From Ruminiclostridium papyrosolvens DSM 2782 (GTDB lineage Bacteria > Bacillota > Clostridia > Acetivibrionales > DSM-1351): DNA of 64,000 bases. Under the pieces are notes generated by a model, which did not search any database, was not told the DNA's origin, and saw only the letters and a program-made list of their open reading frames with translations. Position numbers and translations under genes: made by a program. Below, piece by piece: positions 19,478-25,987 of this stretch. How positions within the stretch are numbered: the stretch's first letter is position 1; every line of letters begins with the position of its first letter. The stretch is from NCBI RefSeq assembly GCF_029318685.1, contig NZ_CP119677.1, positions 186,001 through 250,000 of the forward strand. The letters are read 5' to 3'.

Positions 19478-19546
19478 GAAATCAATGATATTAAGGAGCT
19501 TATGAAAATCAAGAAGAAACCTGTGAAAAATAGATTTTTTAGTATA

Positions 19547-19558
19547 TATCTGCAGATA
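19547..19558. repeat. Palindrome box 1, TATCTGCAGATA
   Basis: The perfect 12-bp palindrome lies 32 bp beyond the stop of the distal precursor gene. About 22 bp of context (TATA before, GATTTT after) is identical to box 2. Confidence 0.8.
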
Positions 19559-19590
19559 GATTTTTACTTTTAATATTGTCTTATGAGATA

Positions 19591-19791
19591 TTAGTAATTT
19601 GCACTAACACAATTACCGCCACAGCAATACTTACAGCTAGCCACACAGCTAGCACTACACCCACCACCACAAGCAGCAGTACACCTATCAACACAGCCAT
19701 ACATACAGGTATAATCACAAGCACTACAAGCATATCCTGATATATCTTGCCTTGATTTACCTATTTTTTTATTAGAGAACAGACGTTCCAT
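19591..19791 (-). CDS. CXXX-repeat RiPP precursor peptide 1
   Basis: The 66-aa peptide starts behind a perfect AAGGAGG. Residues 1-21 form a leader (MERLFSNKKIGKSRQDISGY), nearly identical to that of the neighbouring peptide. The rest is a core with 12 Cys, nearly all spaced as C-x3-C (CMYGC, CVDRC, CTAAC, CGGGC, CSASC, CVASC), ending CKYCCGGNC. Conserved leader, variable Cys-repeat core and an adjacent radical SAM enzyme mark it as a RiPP substrate, probably cross-linked by thioethers. I recall a family described as CXXX-repeat radical SAM peptides that fits. The mature activity is unknown. Confidence 0.85.
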   Translation of the reverse strand: MERLFSNKKIGKSRQDISGYACSACDYTCMYGCVDRCTAACGGGCSASCVASCKYCCGGNCVSANY

Positions 19792-19864
19792 ATTAACACC
19801 TCCTTATTTATGTTGTTTAGATTTATAAAGAAAAGGTATATAAATGCCAGAATTAAAGGGTATA

Positions 19865-19876
19865 TATCTGCAGATA
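19865..19876. repeat. Palindrome box 2, TATCTGCAGATA
   Basis: The same 12-bp palindrome lies between the two precursor genes, 44 bp past the stop of precursor 2 and 74 bp before the start of precursor 1. Confidence 0.8.
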
Positions 19877-19920
19877 GATTTTATCCTATATTCTGGACTT
19901 ATAATTAATAATTATGTAGG

Positions 19921-20124
19921 TTACATACCTGAAGTAGTAACGCAATTATACCCACATGAATACCCACAATGTGTTTGGCAACCAGTATTACAATTAACAT
20001 AACAACCACCAGTACAACCACCATAACAACCGGAACATGTACCATCACAAACATTGCAAAATGCGTATCCACTTATATCCTGTCTTGGCTTACCAATTTT
20101 TTTATTAGAGAACAAACGATCCAT
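19921..20124 (-). CDS. CXXX-repeat RiPP precursor peptide 2
   Basis: The 67-aa peptide starts behind GAGGAGGGG. Its leader (MDRLFSNKKIGKPRQDISGY) differs from that of precursor 1 at two positions, while the core differs widely. The core has 11 Cys spaced mostly C-x3-C (CYGGC, CTGGC, CYVNC, CNTGC, CQTHC, CGYSC, CGYNC) and ends VTTSGM. This leader/core contrast is typical of duplicated RiPP substrates diverging under selection. It is the first of the two precursors in the operon direction. Confidence 0.85.
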   Translation of the reverse strand: MDRLFSNKKIGKPRQDISGYAFCNVCDGTCSGCYGGCTGGCYVNCNTGCQTHCGYSCGYNCVTTSGM

Positions 20125-20158
20125 AATAAACCCCTCCTCAATATATTGTTTTAATATC

Positions 20159-20170
20159 TATCTGCAGATA
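20159..20170. repeat. Palindrome box 3, TATCTGCAGATA
   Basis: The third copy lies 35 bp upstream of the precursor 2 start, with its asymmetric flank (AGATAGAT side) inverted relative to boxes 1 and 2. A TATAAT lies about 20 bp upstream of it on the minus strand, so an operator or internal promoter is possible. Confidence 0.75.
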
Positions 20171-20198
20171 TAAATATGAGCAAGTATTATATCACTAA

Positions 20199-20489
20199 CT
20201 ATTTGGTCAGAATTATTTCACAGGTTTGAAAATCTATATTCCACTTATGTCCATCTATGTTTTTCCATGTGTACTTTTCATACATTTTGTCCCACCATGC
20301 CTGCATATGATACTTGACTTTTCCTAATTCGGTTATCATTTTCTCCTGCATTGTTTCTTTTTGCTCAGCTGAAAGCAAATCACTCTCAAGAGTAGCTGCA
20401 AGCTCTTCAATTCCGAGCTTTCTTTCAAAAAGAACCAGCATTTCATTTTTTTCCTCTTCAGTGACAATTCCAACTACTTCTCTATACAT
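20199..20489 (-). CDS. Small RiPP-cluster protein (CXXX-repeat modification system type)
   Basis: The 96-aa soluble protein has an acidic helical N-terminal half (EEEKNEMLVLFERKLGIEEL, LLSAEQKETMQEKMITELGK) and an aromatic C-terminus (MQAWWDKMYEKYTWKNIDGH). It lies 18 bp after the radical SAM gene and 75 bp before precursor 2, in one operon. I recall a small accessory family in CXXX-repeat peptide systems with this size and position; I infer that it helps recruit the leader or stabilise the maturase. No catalytic motif is visible. Confidence 0.7.
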   Translation of the reverse strand: MYREVVGIVTEEEKNEMLVLFERKLGIEELAATLESDLLSAEQKETMQEKMITELGKVKYHMQAWWDKMYEKYTWKNIDGHKWNIDFQTCEIILTK

Positions 20490-20507
20490 GTTAATAACTT
20501 CCTTTCA

Positions 20508-22634
20508 CTATATTTTTAATAGCTTTTCCAACGGGTCGTTATAGTCAATTTCGCTTAATGTATTTTCAAATTTATAGAAGCTGTATTCTTTGAGTTTTCT
20601 TTGAAGATTCATAGAATGTTCTCTTTCTATGTGGCTTAGCTCACACTGTATTTTAGAAGGTATATTTATTTCATTTGTCATTTTTTTGTTCAGATACTTG
20701 CATCTGTTGCAGTTATAAACATCACAGAGTGAGCATATGGGGGAATTTTCGAGTTTGAGCAGTTGGTCATTTTTTATATTTATTCCGTCAATGATATTTC
20801 CTATATGGCAGTCAGGGTCATCAAAGTAAAAGGCAGGACATATATAGATTCTTCCATTGGGTGCAAGTGAAAATGTATTGGTACCTGCGTCACAGTTTTT
20901 CATAGATTTTAAATTCCAAATGTCAGTTAGTACATTTATTTCAAGTTCCTCACCCTGTGCGTATTTTTCAGCAATAAAATCAACTATTTTATTTAACTGA
21001 GTTCTATACTCCTGAACATCTTGGGCGTTCCAGTCATTAATATCTTCAAGCTCGAGATTTATTCTGTATACTGTACCTGCAAGCTGTTCTATTAATTCAT
21101 ATAAGTTATGTATATTGTACCTGTTAAGCAGTAATATGCCGGGAGCTTCTTCATCGGGATTGTCTGCACAGTTGTCATACACTGAAATGGCATTTCCGGC
21201 TTGTCCCGCTTTATCAATAGTAAGGTATTCCTTTATATTTGCTTCATCTAGTCCCTGTGGTGTGCCAAGAAAGACAGGTGTATAGCCGTTTTTCTCACAA
21301 AATGTGATACCTTGTTTTAATAATTCAGGAGTCATGATATTTTTAGTAGACTTTGTGTTTCTATAGGAACAATGGGGTGTTATGTTGTCTGAAGTTATAA
21401 ATTGCAAATATCTCTTTTTTTCATGCTCTCTATCCGCTGACAATTTTGTTCTTTCAGAAGGTAAGCCCGTTAGTTTTTCAAACTTTTCCCAGAAATATTT
21501 GTTTGCCCGTACAGTTGCTTTATGCATATTGCATAAATATGTAGCCCTTTGATAAATAGTATCAGTGTCTGCCATGTCGTAATTACAGCCCTGACACCAT
21601 GCGCAGCCACTTGCCACTTCACACTTTACACATTCCAGAGAACTTTGAGTTTTCAGACTTAATGCATGAAAGGGTCTTAGTTTGTCCTGATTAATCCCGC
21701 TGTCGGCATTTCCTACGCATATTGCTTTCTTGTTATTCAAACTAATAGTATAGAACCTTATGCATGGAAAAAAGTTACCGTCACAGTCAATTGCCAGCAT
21801 TTTACCTGCACCGCAATAATTTTTATTAATCTCTTCTTCTGTGAGAGGGTTACCTATGTAGGGGTCAAAGAATCTTACAGAGTATTTATCCCACAGCTTA
21901 TTTTCAAGGACATAGTCAGCAAGCTCTCTGAGCTGTTGCTCCATAATAAGGTCGTCGCCCTCTTTCCAGACATCCTCAAACACCACATTTGCAGCTACAG
22001 ATTTTATGCCTATATCCCAAAGGCTGATAATACTGTCTTTAAGATATGGAATATCGTCATGAGCAAAGGTTGCCTTTGAAGAGGAGGCTGGAAATTGACT
22101 AAGCCAGAGAGGTACATTTTTAATTACATCGTCATAGGAGCCGCTACCATCGGGCTTTACTCGCTGTAAGTCATGTTTTATCTTGTTTCCGTCTACACTC
22201 AAACCTATAGAGAGGTGAGCTATATTTTTTTTAATATATTTCTGAACCGCCGGAGTACCGTAAAGAAGGCCATTGCTGGAGAAGGATAATCTGTAGCTGT
22301 TGAACCAAGGATGGTCAAGTAGGAACATCTGCTGCTTGATATAGTCCGTTATTCTGTCTACCAGTTCTATTTCTACAAAAGCTTCTCCTCCTATGAATTC
22401 CCATACTACTGACTTATCATTAAAGGTATCCCTTTCTGAAAGTAAGTAATCTACGACCTTTTTAGCTGTTTCAAAGGTCATTTTTTTTAAGCTGTTTTTC
22501 CCTGTCATATAGCAGTATTTACAGGCAAGGTTACAATCCTCTGTCACACAAAAGGTTATAGTTTTTGGCTTGCCATCCAAACCATTCCATACAGGATTTA
22601 AATTTCCCATTTTGATTTCAGTAATGCTTTCCAC
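20508..22634 (-). CDS. Radical SAM peptide maturase fused to a second Cys-rich maturase domain
   Basis: This 708-aa protein starts at GTG, seven bases after AAGGAG. C34, C38 and C41 (CNLACKYC) form the radical SAM 4Fe-4S motif, followed by a SAM-binding GGEA region. A SPASM-like Cys cluster lies near residues 270-370 (NYCGAGKMLAID, CVKCEVASGCAWCQGC). Residues about 400-708 form a second module with its own SPASM-like cluster (NCDAGTNTFSLAPNGRIYIC, CSLCDVYNCNRC), which I think matches what are elsewhere separate CXXX-repeat maturase proteins. It probably installs thioether cross-links on the two downstream Cys-repeat peptides. Confidence 0.88.
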   Translation of the reverse strand: MESITEIKMGNLNPVWNGLDGKPKTITFCVTEDCNLACKYCYMTGKNSLKKMTFETAKKVVDYLLSERDTFNDKSVVWEFIGGEAFVEIELVDRITDYIKQQMFLLDHPWFNSYRLSFSSNGLLYGTPAVQKYIKKNIAHLSIGLSVDGNKIKHDLQRVKPDGSGSYDDVIKNVPLWLSQFPASSSKATFAHDDIPYLKDSIISLWDIGIKSVAANVVFEDVWKEGDDLIMEQQLRELADYVLENKLWDKYSVRFFDPYIGNPLTEEEINKNYCGAGKMLAIDCDGNFFPCIRFYTISLNNKKAICVGNADSGINQDKLRPFHALSLKTQSSLECVKCEVASGCAWCQGCNYDMADTDTIYQRATYLCNMHKATVRANKYFWEKFEKLTGLPSERTKLSADREHEKKRYLQFITSDNITPHCSYRNTKSTKNIMTPELLKQGITFCEKNGYTPVFLGTPQGLDEANIKEYLTIDKAGQAGNAISVYDNCADNPDEEAPGILLLNRYNIHNLYELIEQLAGTVYRINLELEDINDWNAQDVQEYRTQLNKIVDFIAEKYAQGEELEINVLTDIWNLKSMKNCDAGTNTFSLAPNGRIYICPAFYFDDPDCHIGNIIDGINIKNDQLLKLENSPICSLCDVYNCNRCKYLNKKMTNEINIPSKIQCELSHIEREHSMNLQRKLKEYSFYKFENTLSEIDYNDPLEKLLKI

Positions 22635-22649
22635 CTTATCACTCCTTTT

Positions 22650-23342
22650 TTAAAGTGCCTTTAGTAATTCTTCTCTGGCTTCCTCATATGGAAGATTTTT
22701 TTTATCCTTTATTATTCGGGCTAAATGGCCTGATATATAGGCTGCCGACAGACTTGTGCCTCTGACATTTTTTATGTCTTGTATGTCTTGCAAGCACTCT
22801 ATACCTTCAATTCCTGAAGGTGCATAGAAAAAACCCTGTTTATATGAATATTGCATACAATCGTCAAAGCTGTCTGCCTTTACACCAATAACGCCTTTAA
22901 GATAAGCAGGATAGGAAACTTTTCCCGAGTTTTCAGCAGCAGCTACCAGAGTTATATTAAGTCTTTTTGCCTCTTTAACTATTTTTCTTAAAGGGAAAAT
23001 ATACCTTTTTTTTACAGTACCCAGACTCATATGTATGATATCAGGCTTATAGTCAAATACCTGACTTAAGGAATATGCAAGTATTCTTCCGTCTGACGAC
23101 AGGTTCTCGTCAAGGATATTTACACTTATTAGCTCAATATCACTGCATATATGACGTATTATTGCAGCTATTATTGTGCCATGAAGATTCCTCACCGGCA
23201 GAGTATTGTTCTCTTTTATATATCCTTTAATGTTGACGCTATAACCGGTTGAGTGTATTACATTCTTATTCAAATTGCATATCTGTGTGTTTATCCCACT
23301 GTCAATTATGGCAATCCTGATTTTCCTGTCCGATTCCTCTAT
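22650..23342 (-). CDS. Compact S8 (subtilisin-like) peptidase of the RiPP operon; possible ATA start
   Basis: The catalytic triad is Asp in IAIIDSGI, His in NLHGTIIAA and Ser in GTSLSAAYISG (D14, H54 and S197 of 230 residues). The first canonical start, TTG at 23273, would lose the catalytic Asp. Upstream the frame is open only to just after the exporter stop codon. AGGGAGG there sits seven bases before an in-frame ATA at 23342, which I take as the likely start. There is no signal peptide or propeptide, so it is cytoplasmic and probably cleaves the precursor leaders. Confidence 0.85.
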   Translation of the reverse strand: MEESDRKIRIAIIDSGINTQICNLNKNVIHSTGYSVNIKGYIKENNTLPVRNLHGTIIAAIIRHICSDIELISVNILDENLSSDGRILAYSLSQVFDYKPDIIHMSLGTVKKRYIFPLRKIVKEAKRLNITLVAAAENSGKVSYPAYLKGVIGVKADSFDDCMQYSYKQGFFYAPSGIEGIECLQDIQDIKNVRGTSLSAAYISGHLARIIKDKKNLPYEEAREELLKAL

Positions 23343-23343
23343 A

Positions 23344-25119
23344 TCAAATCACCTCCCTGCTATTTTCATTTATTAGCTCCACCTCAGCTTGGTACAGATG
23401 CTTGTACACTTTATTGGTATGGATTAGTGAATGGTGATTTCCTCGACCAACTATTTTTCCGTTTTCTAATACATATATGACATCGGCTTCTATTATCGTT
23501 GAAAGCCTGTGAGCTATCAGCACTACGGTACAATCCTCAGCTAGGGCATCAATTGCTTTTTTTATGTAAAATTGAGATTCATTATCTAAAGAAGAGGTTG
23601 CCTCGTCAAATAGTATTATCTTTGATTTTTTTAACAAGGCTCTTGCTATAGCTATTCTTTGTTTTTGTCCCCCTGAAAGATTCACACCGTTTTCTCCCAC
23701 GATAGAGTTATATTTATTAGGCATGGATTCTATATATTCATGTATATATGCCTTTTTACAGGCATTTTCTATTTCCTGCTGAGTAGCATCGGGGTTTGCA
23801 AGCAACAGATTCTCTTTTATGGATATCATAAACAGAACAGGTTCTTGACGTACTACGGATACGTGCCTGCGTAAATCTTCTTCCTTGATTTCATTCAGGT
23901 CTGTGTGGTCAATGAATATATTCCCATTACAGGGCTGGTAAAGGCGCAGCAATAAATTGAAAATGGTAGTTTTGCCGCTTCCGCTGCTTCCTACTATGGC
24001 TGTCCTGCTTTTGGACGGAATATTTATGGTAACGTCATCCAGTACGCTTACCTGATTATCATAACTGAAGGAGACATTTTTAAAATTAATTTCACCGGTT
24101 ATATTGTGAATGCTTTTTTCACCAATTTCTTCATGTGAATAAGACAGCCCGTCTATTAAGAAAAATATTCTTTCAAGGGAGTTCATAACCTGCTGTAAAT
24201 TGAGATTAAATTTGCTTATGCTTAAAAGAGACCCTGAGAATTGTCCGGAGTATGAATTGAAGGCAATAAAATACTTTATGTTTAGTGAGCCGTTTACAAC
24301 GAATACTCCTCCTACAAAAACCACGGCGATACTGGTTAAATGGTTTACAATGTCTGAAAGTGCCTGAGATTTTGCACCAAGCAATATTACGGCTACTATC
24401 ATTTCTTTTAATTTGTTTGCAACCTTTATAAATGCTTCAAACTTGTATTTTTTTATTCCTAAGCTTTTTACTTCCCTTATACCCCAAATGGTTTGTCCCG
24501 ATTCACTATAGTATTTGTCATTGACTTGGGATAAATTTTTGTTGCCTGCCCTGATTTTTTTGCCATATTTATTAAAGATTAAAAAAGTTATTGGGAAAGT
24601 AATTACAACGATTAAAGCCAGTTTAACGCTTATGGTAAACACGGTTATTCCCACTGCTATAAGCCGTATCACATCAACAACAGAATTTATAAGAGTTCCT
24701 GTGATAGCATTTGCAACCTCACCTGAATCTCCATGTAATCTGGACATTAGTTCACCATTATTTAGTTCATCATAAGCTTTTACGGGGAGGTCAAGAATGG
24801 CTTTGTACATATCCCTTTTTAAGTCGAATATTATATTTTGGTTTAGTGAAGAAAAGACATAAGATTGTAAATATGAAAGAATACTTGCAAGAATCCCGAA
24901 TATCAGAGTGTAAACTATATTAGGGATAGCTGAATCAATACTTTTTTTGAAAAAACTGTCCAGTATTCCACCCCAAAAAAGAGGCTGTACTATTCCTATT
25001 CCTATGCTGCCGAGTATACATACAAAAGCCAGTATGAACTTGGTTTTATATGAAAATACATATTTTAAAGCTCTTTTAAGCAATTTTATATCTTCTTGTT
25101 TGAAAAATTTTATCTTCAT
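23344..25119 (-). CDS. ABC-type peptide exporter (fused membrane and ATPase domains)
   Basis: This 591-aa half-transporter has about six transmembrane helices (residues 20-310) and a C-terminal ATPase with Walker A GSSGSGKTT, signature LSGGQKQR, Walker B ILFDEAT and H-loop AHRLST. It lacks an N-terminal C39 peptidase domain, so leader cleavage must come from another protein; the S8 peptidase overlapping its stop codon fits. It is the first gene of the operon and probably exports the modified peptides. A sigma-A promoter lies about 140 bp upstream. Confidence 0.9.
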   Translation of the reverse strand: MKIKFFKQEDIKLLKRALKYVFSYKTKFILAFVCILGSIGIGIVQPLFWGGILDSFFKKSIDSAIPNIVYTLIFGILASILSYLQSYVFSSLNQNIIFDLKRDMYKAILDLPVKAYDELNNGELMSRLHGDSGEVANAITGTLINSVVDVIRLIAVGITVFTISVKLALIVVITFPITFLIFNKYGKKIRAGNKNLSQVNDKYYSESGQTIWGIREVKSLGIKKYKFEAFIKVANKLKEMIVAVILLGAKSQALSDIVNHLTSIAVVFVGGVFVVNGSLNIKYFIAFNSYSGQFSGSLLSISKFNLNLQQVMNSLERIFFLIDGLSYSHEEIGEKSIHNITGEINFKNVSFSYDNQVSVLDDVTINIPSKSRTAIVGSSGSGKTTIFNLLLRLYQPCNGNIFIDHTDLNEIKEEDLRRHVSVVRQEPVLFMISIKENLLLANPDATQQEIENACKKAYIHEYIESMPNKYNSIVGENGVNLSGGQKQRIAIARALLKKSKIILFDEATSSLDNESQFYIKKAIDALAEDCTVVLIAHRLSTIIEADVIYVLENGKIVGRGNHHSLIHTNKVYKHLYQAEVELINENSREVI

Positions 25120-25210
25120 GATTTAGTCCCCACATTTACCTTTTATATCTACAAAAAAACAGCGTAAACCAGACTGACTAAACTAAGGTGTGTATTAGTA
25201 AATATTAATT

Positions 25211-25234
25211 AGGATGCATGATAGGATGCATTAT
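25211..25234. repeat. 12-bp tandem direct repeat in the RiPP operon leader
   Basis: AGGATGCATGAT is followed directly by AGGATGCATTAT, 11 of 12 identical. It lies between the promoter -10 and the exporter start, so it could be an operator for an unlinked regulator. Confidence 0.5.
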
Positions 25235-25260
25235 TTGTATAATATTTACACTTTATAAAT

Positions 25261-25289
25261 AATTTACCATGTAGAGAGATAAATGTCAA
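25261..25289 (-). promoter_or_regulatory. Sigma-A promoter for the RiPP operon
   Basis: On the minus strand TTGACA (25289-25284) and TAAATT (25266-25261) are exactly 17 bp apart. A transcript would start near 25254, leaving an untranslated leader of about 135 nt before the exporter. Confidence 0.65.
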
Positions 25290-25402: not shown

Positions 25403-25987
25403 TTAGCTTAAGAGATTACTTATATGGCCTAAAATAGTATTCAGAAAAATAAATGCTAAAGCTATTCCAAAACAAATTAAAAAGTTTCTTTTTTTAGATG
25501 AAATGTCCTTTTTAAAGCTGGTATACACTTGATTATCATTAAGATATAAAAGAACTATAATCGATATAGCCAAAACATATAGACTGTTTAAAATAAAATC
25601 AAACTCACGTAAAAAAAGTGTATCCTCACCAATTCCTAATACAAAAATTTTAGTGTATAGACCAAATAGGAAAGTAACAAATTTTTGTATTAATAAAAAG
25701 AAAAAGAAGGATACACTCAACCACCACGACCAACTTTTCATTCTAAGTATGCCAATTCCTGCAATAATATTGGTTAAAACTAAAATTGCAGAAATCCCAA
25801 GAGATATATATGCTGCTGCATCTATTACGGCTTTATTTAAAAAATCATCATTAATATGCAGACTATTTCTTATATTTATTAACTGTTGAATTATATAAAA
25901 GACAGCAATAAAAAAGTGTGCTATTGCTAAAAAACTAATTGGTAATTTTGAATTTTTTGATCTGTTAATTTCAGTGTAAATATTCAT
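25403..25987 (-). CDS. Integral membrane protein, unknown function
   Basis: The 194-aa protein has about five hydrophobic segments (FLAIAHFFIAVFYIIQQLI, AAYISLGISAILVLTNIIAG, WWLSVSFFFFLLIQKFVTF, LNSLYVLAISIIVLLYL, NFLICFGIALAFIFLNTI). The loop ILRMKSWSWWLS between helices 2 and 3 resembles small clostridial membrane proteins with a KxWSWW motif. It lies upstream of the RiPP operon promoter on the same strand but is separated by 283 bp, so an immunity role is possible but unsupported. Confidence 0.7.
   Translation of the reverse strand: MNIYTEINRSKNSKLPISFLAIAHFFIAVFYIIQQLINIRNSLHINDDFLNKAVIDAAAYISLGISAILVLTNIIAGIGILRMKSWSWWLSVSFFFFLLIQKFVTFLFGLYTKIFVLGIGEDTLFLREFDFILNSLYVLAISIIVLLYLNDNQVYTSFKKDISSKKRNFLICFGIALAFIFLNTILGHISNLLS

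Follow-up and report, generated by a model that had tools for sequence, protein, structure and literature searches.

A CXXX-repeat peptide operon of Ruminiclostridium papyrosolvens that includes peptidase and exporter genes, and a probable AUA start of its peptidase gene

Introduction

In the genome of Ruminiclostridium papyrosolvens DSM 2782, a stretch of 64,000 nucleotides (nt) (contig NZ_CP119677.1, positions 186,001 to 250,000; hereafter "the window") carries an operon that is a real, intact and conserved member of a family already named in the databases, that of the CXXX-repeat peptides. We assign this locus, together with the pathway proposed below, to the TIGR04118 (AC3_0185) branch of CXXX-repeat ribosomally synthesised and post-translationally modified peptides (RiPPs), with a probability of roughly 0.78. 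We document its family membership, its gene order and the recurrence of that order, the catalytic motifs of its peptidase, the purifying selection on its genes, a degenerate duplicate within its maturase, and the position and recurrence of an AUA codon. The family is said to have been described originally by Haft and Basu in the Journal of Bacteriology in 2011. Because peptidase and exporter are encoded in the same compact operon, it is a handy place to look for a first product of the CXXX-repeat family and for the cross-links in it.

Family Membership and Operon Structure

The class was assigned with NCBIfam profiles and their curated cut-offs. The 708-amino-acid (aa) radical S-adenosylmethionine (rSAM) protein scores 555.8 bits against TIGR04115 (cut-off 350) and 322.2 bits against TIGR04119 (cut-off 150), the helper scores 111 bits against TIGR04116 (cut-off 50), and the two precursors, both with a Cys at every fourth residue, score 93.9 and 52.5 bits against TIGR04118 (cut-off 35). 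An earlier interpretation made from the letters of the window (the sequence-only reading) had recognised the class from its motifs, and it would have been refuted if the 708-aa protein were unlike peptide maturases or if related genomes with the enzyme lacked the precursors. Neither is the case: the profiles bear out the class and make the 708-aa protein a peptide maturase, and 52 of the 61 related loci that have both halves of the maturase also have, no more than 4 kb away and on the same strand, a CXXX-repeat open reading frame (ORF). Matches below the TIGR04115 cut-off are unspecific, since 10 of 14 control genomes have them and none of the 14 has a match above it; within the genus, 5 of 11 genomes encode a protein above the cut-off. 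The source genome also has five more maturase-like rSAM matches of 73–122 bits, below that cut-off (G000:C1:1799216, 3587939, 435499, 760854, and 1641092), and besides these, two weaker ones.

The maturase, helper and precursors thus exceed the cut-offs of the NCBIfam CXXX-repeat system (TIGR04114–TIGR04119), whose models do not include an S8 peptidase or an ATP-binding cassette (ABC) exporter, both of which are present here. The ABC exporter consists of membrane and ATPase domains, and a peptidase domain is not among its Pfam matches. That the product of the family has yet to be described, as the sequence-only reading held, is not contradicted by the open-licence literature searched, in which neither the family accessions, nor the phrase "CXXX repeat peptide", nor wider combinations of terms lead to a paper on such a product; subscription papers are mostly not covered by it.

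All genes and the promoter lie on the minus strand in the order that had been claimed (Table 1), and the gaps, which had been called short, are 1, 15, 18, 74, and 129 nt from the ABC gene to precursor 2, the 1-nt gap being counted from the AUA at 23342. To call the operon complete was slightly too strong: every part that had been named is present, but an immunity gene was not recognised with family or Pfam profiles among the three neighbours scanned. Neither promoter-type sites (33 seen across the region, 32.8 expected from shuffles) nor terminators are in excess over shuffled sequence. Just upstream of the operon, on the same strand, is a gene for a 194-aa membrane-like protein without a family match (25403–25987). 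The genome G007 belongs to the same genus and has the locus at nearly the same chromosomal position; there a different ORF, of 329 aa, occupies the corresponding site, so that the 194-aa protein is probably not a member of the operon.

Table 1. Positions of the operon features within the window
Feature	Coordinates	Strand	Basis
Promoter TTGACA-17-TAAATT, TG before -10	25261..25289	-	kept in relative G007
ABC exporter, 591 aa	23344..25119	-	PF00664 147.7 bits and PF00005 114.1 bits, above cut-off
S8 (subtilisin-like) leader peptidase (putative), 230 aa from AUA start	22650..23342	-	frame, motifs, PF00082 and QhpE scores
CXXX-repeat maturase, 708 aa, GTG start	20508..22634	-	TIGR04115 and TIGR04119
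Helper, 96 aa	20199..20489	-	TIGR04116
Precursor 1, 67 aa	19921..20124	-	TIGR04118
Precursor 2, 66 aa	19591..19791	-	TIGR04118
Upstream arm (U), palindrome TATCTGCAGATA, 5' of precursor 1	20152..20172	-	sequence and folding analysis
Downstream arm (D) between precursors	19863..19883	-	95% complementarity with U across 21 nt
Downstream arm (D) after precursor 2	19545..19564	-	95% complementarity with U across 20 nt

Recurrence of the Operon and its Leader Types

The best 80 of 393 relatives in a scan of the collection, together with the window, the loci L015 and L016 of the same genome and the G007 locus, make up a set of 84 loci that is biased to relatives of a fused query. Both maturase halves are found in 61 of them (50 fused, 11 split); among the remaining 23, some loci are truncated where a contig ends. 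The helper accompanies the maturase in 57 of the 61 and the S8 peptidase in 14, and the combination of ABC gene, S8 gene, fused maturase and precursor is seen in 12; the order of the window (ABC, S8, maturase, helper, precursor) is found in nine, the window included. Relatives of the S8 protein at E ≤ 1e-20 are rare: with the genome of the window counted, the order has them in 8 of its 58 genomes and the class in 4 of 391, and G005 is one of these genomes.

Two further TIGR04115 loci above the cut-off lie in the source genome at 4.29 and 4.32 Mb, about 27 kb apart. Each has a maturase, a helper and two precursors. L015 (G000:C1:4284000-4303000) also has an S8 gene but lacks an exporter-type ABC gene in the surrounding 7.5 kb, and L016 (G000:C1:4303001-4322000) also has an ABC gene but lacks an S8 gene. 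The leaders of the two loci also differ.

The presence of the S8 gene goes together with the type of leader. A leader end of the D[VIT]x[GA][YHN] type (N allowed for D) is found in all 14 S8 loci versus none of the 38 precursor-bearing loci without S8, by patterns that were written after the precursor sequences had been seen. On the maturase tree the distribution of S8 needs four changes, compared with a mean of 12.8 after shuffling (0 of 500 shuffles were as low), and the gene marks mainly one branch. Among the S8-less loci, nine have precursors with leaders resembling twin-arginine translocation (Tat) signals, and none of the nine has an ABC gene on the same strand within 4.5 kb; in L067, one of them, an ABC gene is on the other strand. 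The remaining 29 include 19 with leaders of the M-x-x-SKI type, and an ABC gene accompanies every one of these. Supported branches offer few independent contrasts: two for S8 and leader type, which both agree, and none or one informative out of three for the ABC gene and Tat-like leaders. Of the seven S8-type precursors compared from outside the window, five reach the TIGR04118 cut-off; two SKI-type precursors do not match that model, and one Tat-like precursor reaches the cut-off of TIGR04117 instead. Our reading of these sequence patterns is that one maturation core may be combined with three leader-and-export modules.

The Tat-like precursors without a same-strand ABC neighbour are in L058, L061, L062, L065, L066, L067, and L069, with split maturases, and in L035 and L055, with fused ones; these loci come from Pseudomonadota, Planctomycetota, and Selenomonadales records. 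Two records of metagenome-assembled genomes titled Bacteroidales and Bacteroides fragilis (L021, L068) hold S8-type loci that are nested among clostridial ones, a placement due either to transfer or to misbinning.

Comparison with G007 indicates how selection acts on the operon. The ratio of nonsynonymous to synonymous substitution rates (dN/dS) is about 0.13 for the ABC (0.072/0.564), S8 (0.092/0.685), and rSAM (0.091/0.730) genes, and the helper gives 0.147/1.004. Against the single precursor of G007, the aligned parts of the two precursors give 0.403/0.913 and 0.309/0.920 and their first 20 codons 0.11/1.415 and 0.148/1.019, with a core identity of 50–56%. Judging from these substitution rates, the enzymes and the leader are constrained and the cores change.

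The Start of the Peptidase Gene

The sequence-only reading was right about the S8 family of the peptidase; the length in the ORF list, 207 aa from a TTG, was too short and left out the strand with the catalytic Asp. The protein has the Asp (IAIIDSG), His (HGT), and Ser (GTS) motifs, and its frame is open upstream to 23345. These two observations rule out a truncated or dead peptidase. Between the upstream in-frame stop and the catalytic Asp of the window gene there is no ATG, GTG, or TTG, but an ATA follows GGAGG at a distance of nine bases (GGAGGTGATTTGATATA). In L015, the paralogous locus, an ATG occupies that place (GGAGGTGATTTACTATG), with exactly the same spacing. Compared with the TTG start, the additional stretch lifts the PF00082 score from 45.8 to 63.6 bits and that of QhpE from 116.3 to 128.7 bits, and the QhpE model is then covered at positions 1–208 of 219. 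Since no usual start codon precedes the catalytic Asp and the ATA lies at Shine-Dalgarno spacing, translation most likely starts at AUA, as far as the sequence can tell.

The same position was compared in 16 distinct S8 genes, including that of Pseudobacteroides and excluding a distant G005 protein (28% identical). An ATA at a Shine-Dalgarno spacing of 7–9 is present in six (the window, G007, R. cellobioparum, R. hungatei, Maledivibacter, and Desulfosporosinus), and in four of these six a usual start codon is absent from the stretch; in R. hungatei the sole one is a GTG, which is three codons upstream of the Asp. The other ten genes have ATG in nine cases and GTG in one, and three of these starts are 22–23 codons before the Asp. 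It should be mentioned that the ATA-started gene of Desulfosporosinus metallidurans (L087:6362-7037) is in two reading frames near a contig end. An experimental precedent comes from Staphylococcus aureus, where, according to an excerpt of PMC13009471, AUA and AUU starts with a strong extended Shine-Dalgarno sequence reach about 10% and up to 30% of the expression from AUG. We infer that peptidase levels are probably kept low by the AUA start. In practice, gene calls restricted to ATG, GTG, and TTG remove the catalytic Asp of this peptidase, which then appears as a dead fragment.

An Active and a Degenerate Half in the Maturase

The maturase is an active-type rSAM-SPASM domain (residues ~24–381) fused to a degenerate one (~404–707), which contains the TIGR04119 region. 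Comparison of the profiles of residues 1–395 and 400–708 gives a probability of 97.7 and an E value of 1.8e-12, and 10 column-shuffled decoys reach at most 0.7. The CX3CX2C motif is present in 42 of 42 N-halves and in none of the 42 C-halves, where Cys422, which aligns with its middle Cys, is kept throughout. Seven SPASM-type Cys are found in the N-halves of all 42 aligned proteins, and the seven of the C-half are equally kept, except that C581 is present in 41. Because the profiles of the halves match and the C-half has lost CX3CX2C and kept the SPASM-type Cys, TIGR04119 reads as part of a degenerate rSAM-SPASM domain. About five Fe-S clusters per maturase are predicted from these residues.

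By sequence (8e-46) and by fold, the nearest solved structure to the N-half is CteB (5WGG/5WHY). The match starts only at CteB residue 93, so that the maturase has no counterpart of the preceding CteB domain, which we take to be its leader-binding domain. The structural model of the maturase has a mean predicted local distance difference test score (pLDDT) of 88.7 and a predicted template modelling score of 0.73; that of the helper (mean pLDDT 95.8) predicts a strand, a helical hairpin and two strands, and has no match in the PDB at E ≤ 0.001. A PqqD-type domain is not listed by Pfam up to E 10 for either the maturase or the helper, in lists whose filters drop most weak matches. With a different predicted fold as well, the helper is ruled out as a PqqD-like protein.

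CteB and PapB have the rSAM-SPASM fold in common with the maturase, and the extra degenerate half is one of the features that set the maturase apart from them. According to an excerpt of PMC10470005, an auxiliary cluster of PapB binds the thiol of the substrate, and the enzyme needs intermolecular electron transfer between turnovers. The degenerate C-half might serve as a built-in electron relay, a suggestion of our own. A pair of one active and one degenerate rSAM domain lends itself to testing why extra clusters occur in some rSAM enzymes.

A Proposed Pathway and its Alternatives

In the pathway that we propose, the leader (LFSNKKIGK...QDISGY) would recruit the maturase, whose N-terminal rSAM-SPASM half would form thioether cross-links from the repeated Cys, with the loss of two H per link. 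The C-half, with the Cys for two auxiliary clusters kept and the SAM-cluster motif lost, would probably hold the substrate and/or relay electrons, and the TIGR04116 helper would act as a scaffold. Still in the cytoplasm, the QhpE-like S8 peptidase would then cleave near D-x-x-G-Y to remove the leader, and the core would be exported by the ABC protein. The scarcity of an AUA-started peptidase would let cross-linking precede cutting. We infer the thioether chemistry, the order of events, the cleavage site, the rationing of the peptidase and the role of the product as a secreted, probably antagonistic peptide. A comparable combination is known from the maturation of quinohemoprotein amine dehydrogenase (QHNDH), in which, as far as the available part of PMC7876137 describes it, the rSAM enzyme QhpD, the suicidal S8 leader peptidase QhpE and the ABC protein QhpF form one pathway encoded in one operon. 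The rSAM, S8, and ABC combination is common to both systems, whereas the QHNDH substrate is an enzyme subunit rather than a CXXX-repeat peptide, and the flavoprotein QhpG of that system is missing from this operon.

Several observations weigh against the assignment or parts of it. QhpE is the best family match of the S8 protein, with 128.7 bits below its cut-off of 165, and QhpD (TIGR03906) matches the maturase with 107.8 bits, far below 453. Two of the seven S8-type precursors from outside the window (28.8 and 32.2 bits) fall short of the TIGR04118 cut-off. The leader patterns, as said, were written after the fact, and the contrast test of S8 against leader type is not significant, two contrasts being too few. 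In G007 an in-frame TTG follows the ATA, ten codons before the Asp, and the Shine-Dalgarno sequence is weaker (GGATG). The divergence of the cores fits antagonism but also fits relaxed constraint, and the lack of a recognised immunity gene is a further point. Finally, Asp and Glu, the residues used as acceptors by PapB and QhpD, occur in only 2 of the 18 CXXX units of the window, with all three X positions counted.

This last count also bears on an alternative chemistry, in which the maturase would make Cys-Asp/Glu thioethers of the PapB/QhpD type and the product would be a ranthipeptide. PapB (NF047865) is the best model match after the two CXXX models, with 189.6 bits, and QhpD follows with the score given above, but both stay below their cut-offs (340 for PapB). 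In contrast to the CteB and PapB systems, regular Asp/Glu acceptors are lacking in the window precursors; such residues occur in 19 of 134 units in S8-type loci and in 222 of 804 in all 82 precursors counted, where the commonest features are a Gly as second X (37%) and a Ser or Thr as third (45%). In CXXX chains the fourth residue after a Cys is again Cys, in place of the Asp/Glu of the PapB-type Cys-X3-Asp/Glu motif. Given the low Asp/Glu count, a general Cys-Asp/Glu chemistry is unlikely, and we regard a ranthipeptide as improbable. Still more doubtful is the main rival to the AUA start, namely that ribosomes shift to the +1 frame where the ABC gene ends (AGG GAG GTG ATT TGA TAT) and so produce an ABC-peptidase fusion. 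Such a frameshift has a precedent in prfB, a Shine-Dalgarno-like stretch immediately precedes ATT TGA, and the +1 frame joins the S8 frame at GAT ATA. However, R. hungatei also has the ATA at Shine-Dalgarno spacing, and its only ABC match within 7.5 kb is distant and on the other strand, while L015 has its ATG at exactly the spacing of the window without an exporter gene upstream. As for the product, a signalling, housekeeping or metal-binding Cys-rich peptide is a possibility that we entertain without favouring it: it would suit the lack of a recognised immunity gene among the neighbours and the 21 Cys that the two window precursors contain from the first CX3C on, but it sits less well with variable cores behind a conserved leader and with several precursors in many loci and a dedicated exporter.

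It is a rather unlikely, more speculative idea that the AUA-rationed peptidase, which is kept in three clostridial genera, and the pair of active and dead rSAM-SPASM halves are two unusual control devices in one operon. If so, rationing would let each precursor be fully cross-linked before cleavage, and the second half, with two extra Fe-S clusters, would be an electron relay or substrate ratchet that replaces the outside redox partner of PapB.

Palindromic Arms around the Precursors

The exact 12-mer TATCTGCAGATA has three copies in the 5.03-Mb genome, all beside these precursors (window 19543–20172), and the copy before precursor 1 is inverted relative to the two copies after the precursors. 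A general repeat element is thereby ruled out as the source of the palindrome. Two of three copies in G007 and the one copy in G010 are at the corresponding locus; G006, without an S8-type locus, has three copies elsewhere, and G004, with one such locus, has none. The core ATCTGCAGAT was not found in other S8-type loci.

Three species, represented by the window, G007 and R. cellobioparum, have a predicted whole-region minimum-energy fold in which the first arm pairs with the last around the precursors. The comparison with shuffles covers the best duplexes, which in the same order reach -26.9, -28.1, and -26.0 kcal/mol, versus minima of -15.9, -21.5, and -23.2 kcal/mol among 200 shuffles each. 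We consider it not far from an even chance that the arms are instead a protein-binding operator or a recombination site. Their common core is a perfect DNA palindrome, and arms from different species pair nearly as stably as those of one species (means of -25.1 and -27.0 kcal/mol), the window U pairing slightly better with the D of G007 (-27.2) than with its own (-26.9), so that covariation is weak. The pairing of U with the last D in three species, and a complementarity that reaches past the palindrome and varies by species, speak for an RNA stem rather than such a site.

A role for an RNA stem can be proposed from the cip-cel operon of R. cellulolyticum, which is probably of the same genus; there, according to an excerpt of PMC10311766, stem-loops between cistrons set the transcript stoichiometry through selective RNA processing and stabilisation. 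The cip-cel stems lie between cistrons, whereas the stem predicted in the window would span the precursor cistrons. By analogy with this stem-controlled mRNA processing, it is a fair guess that the stem raises the output of precursors from one transcript.

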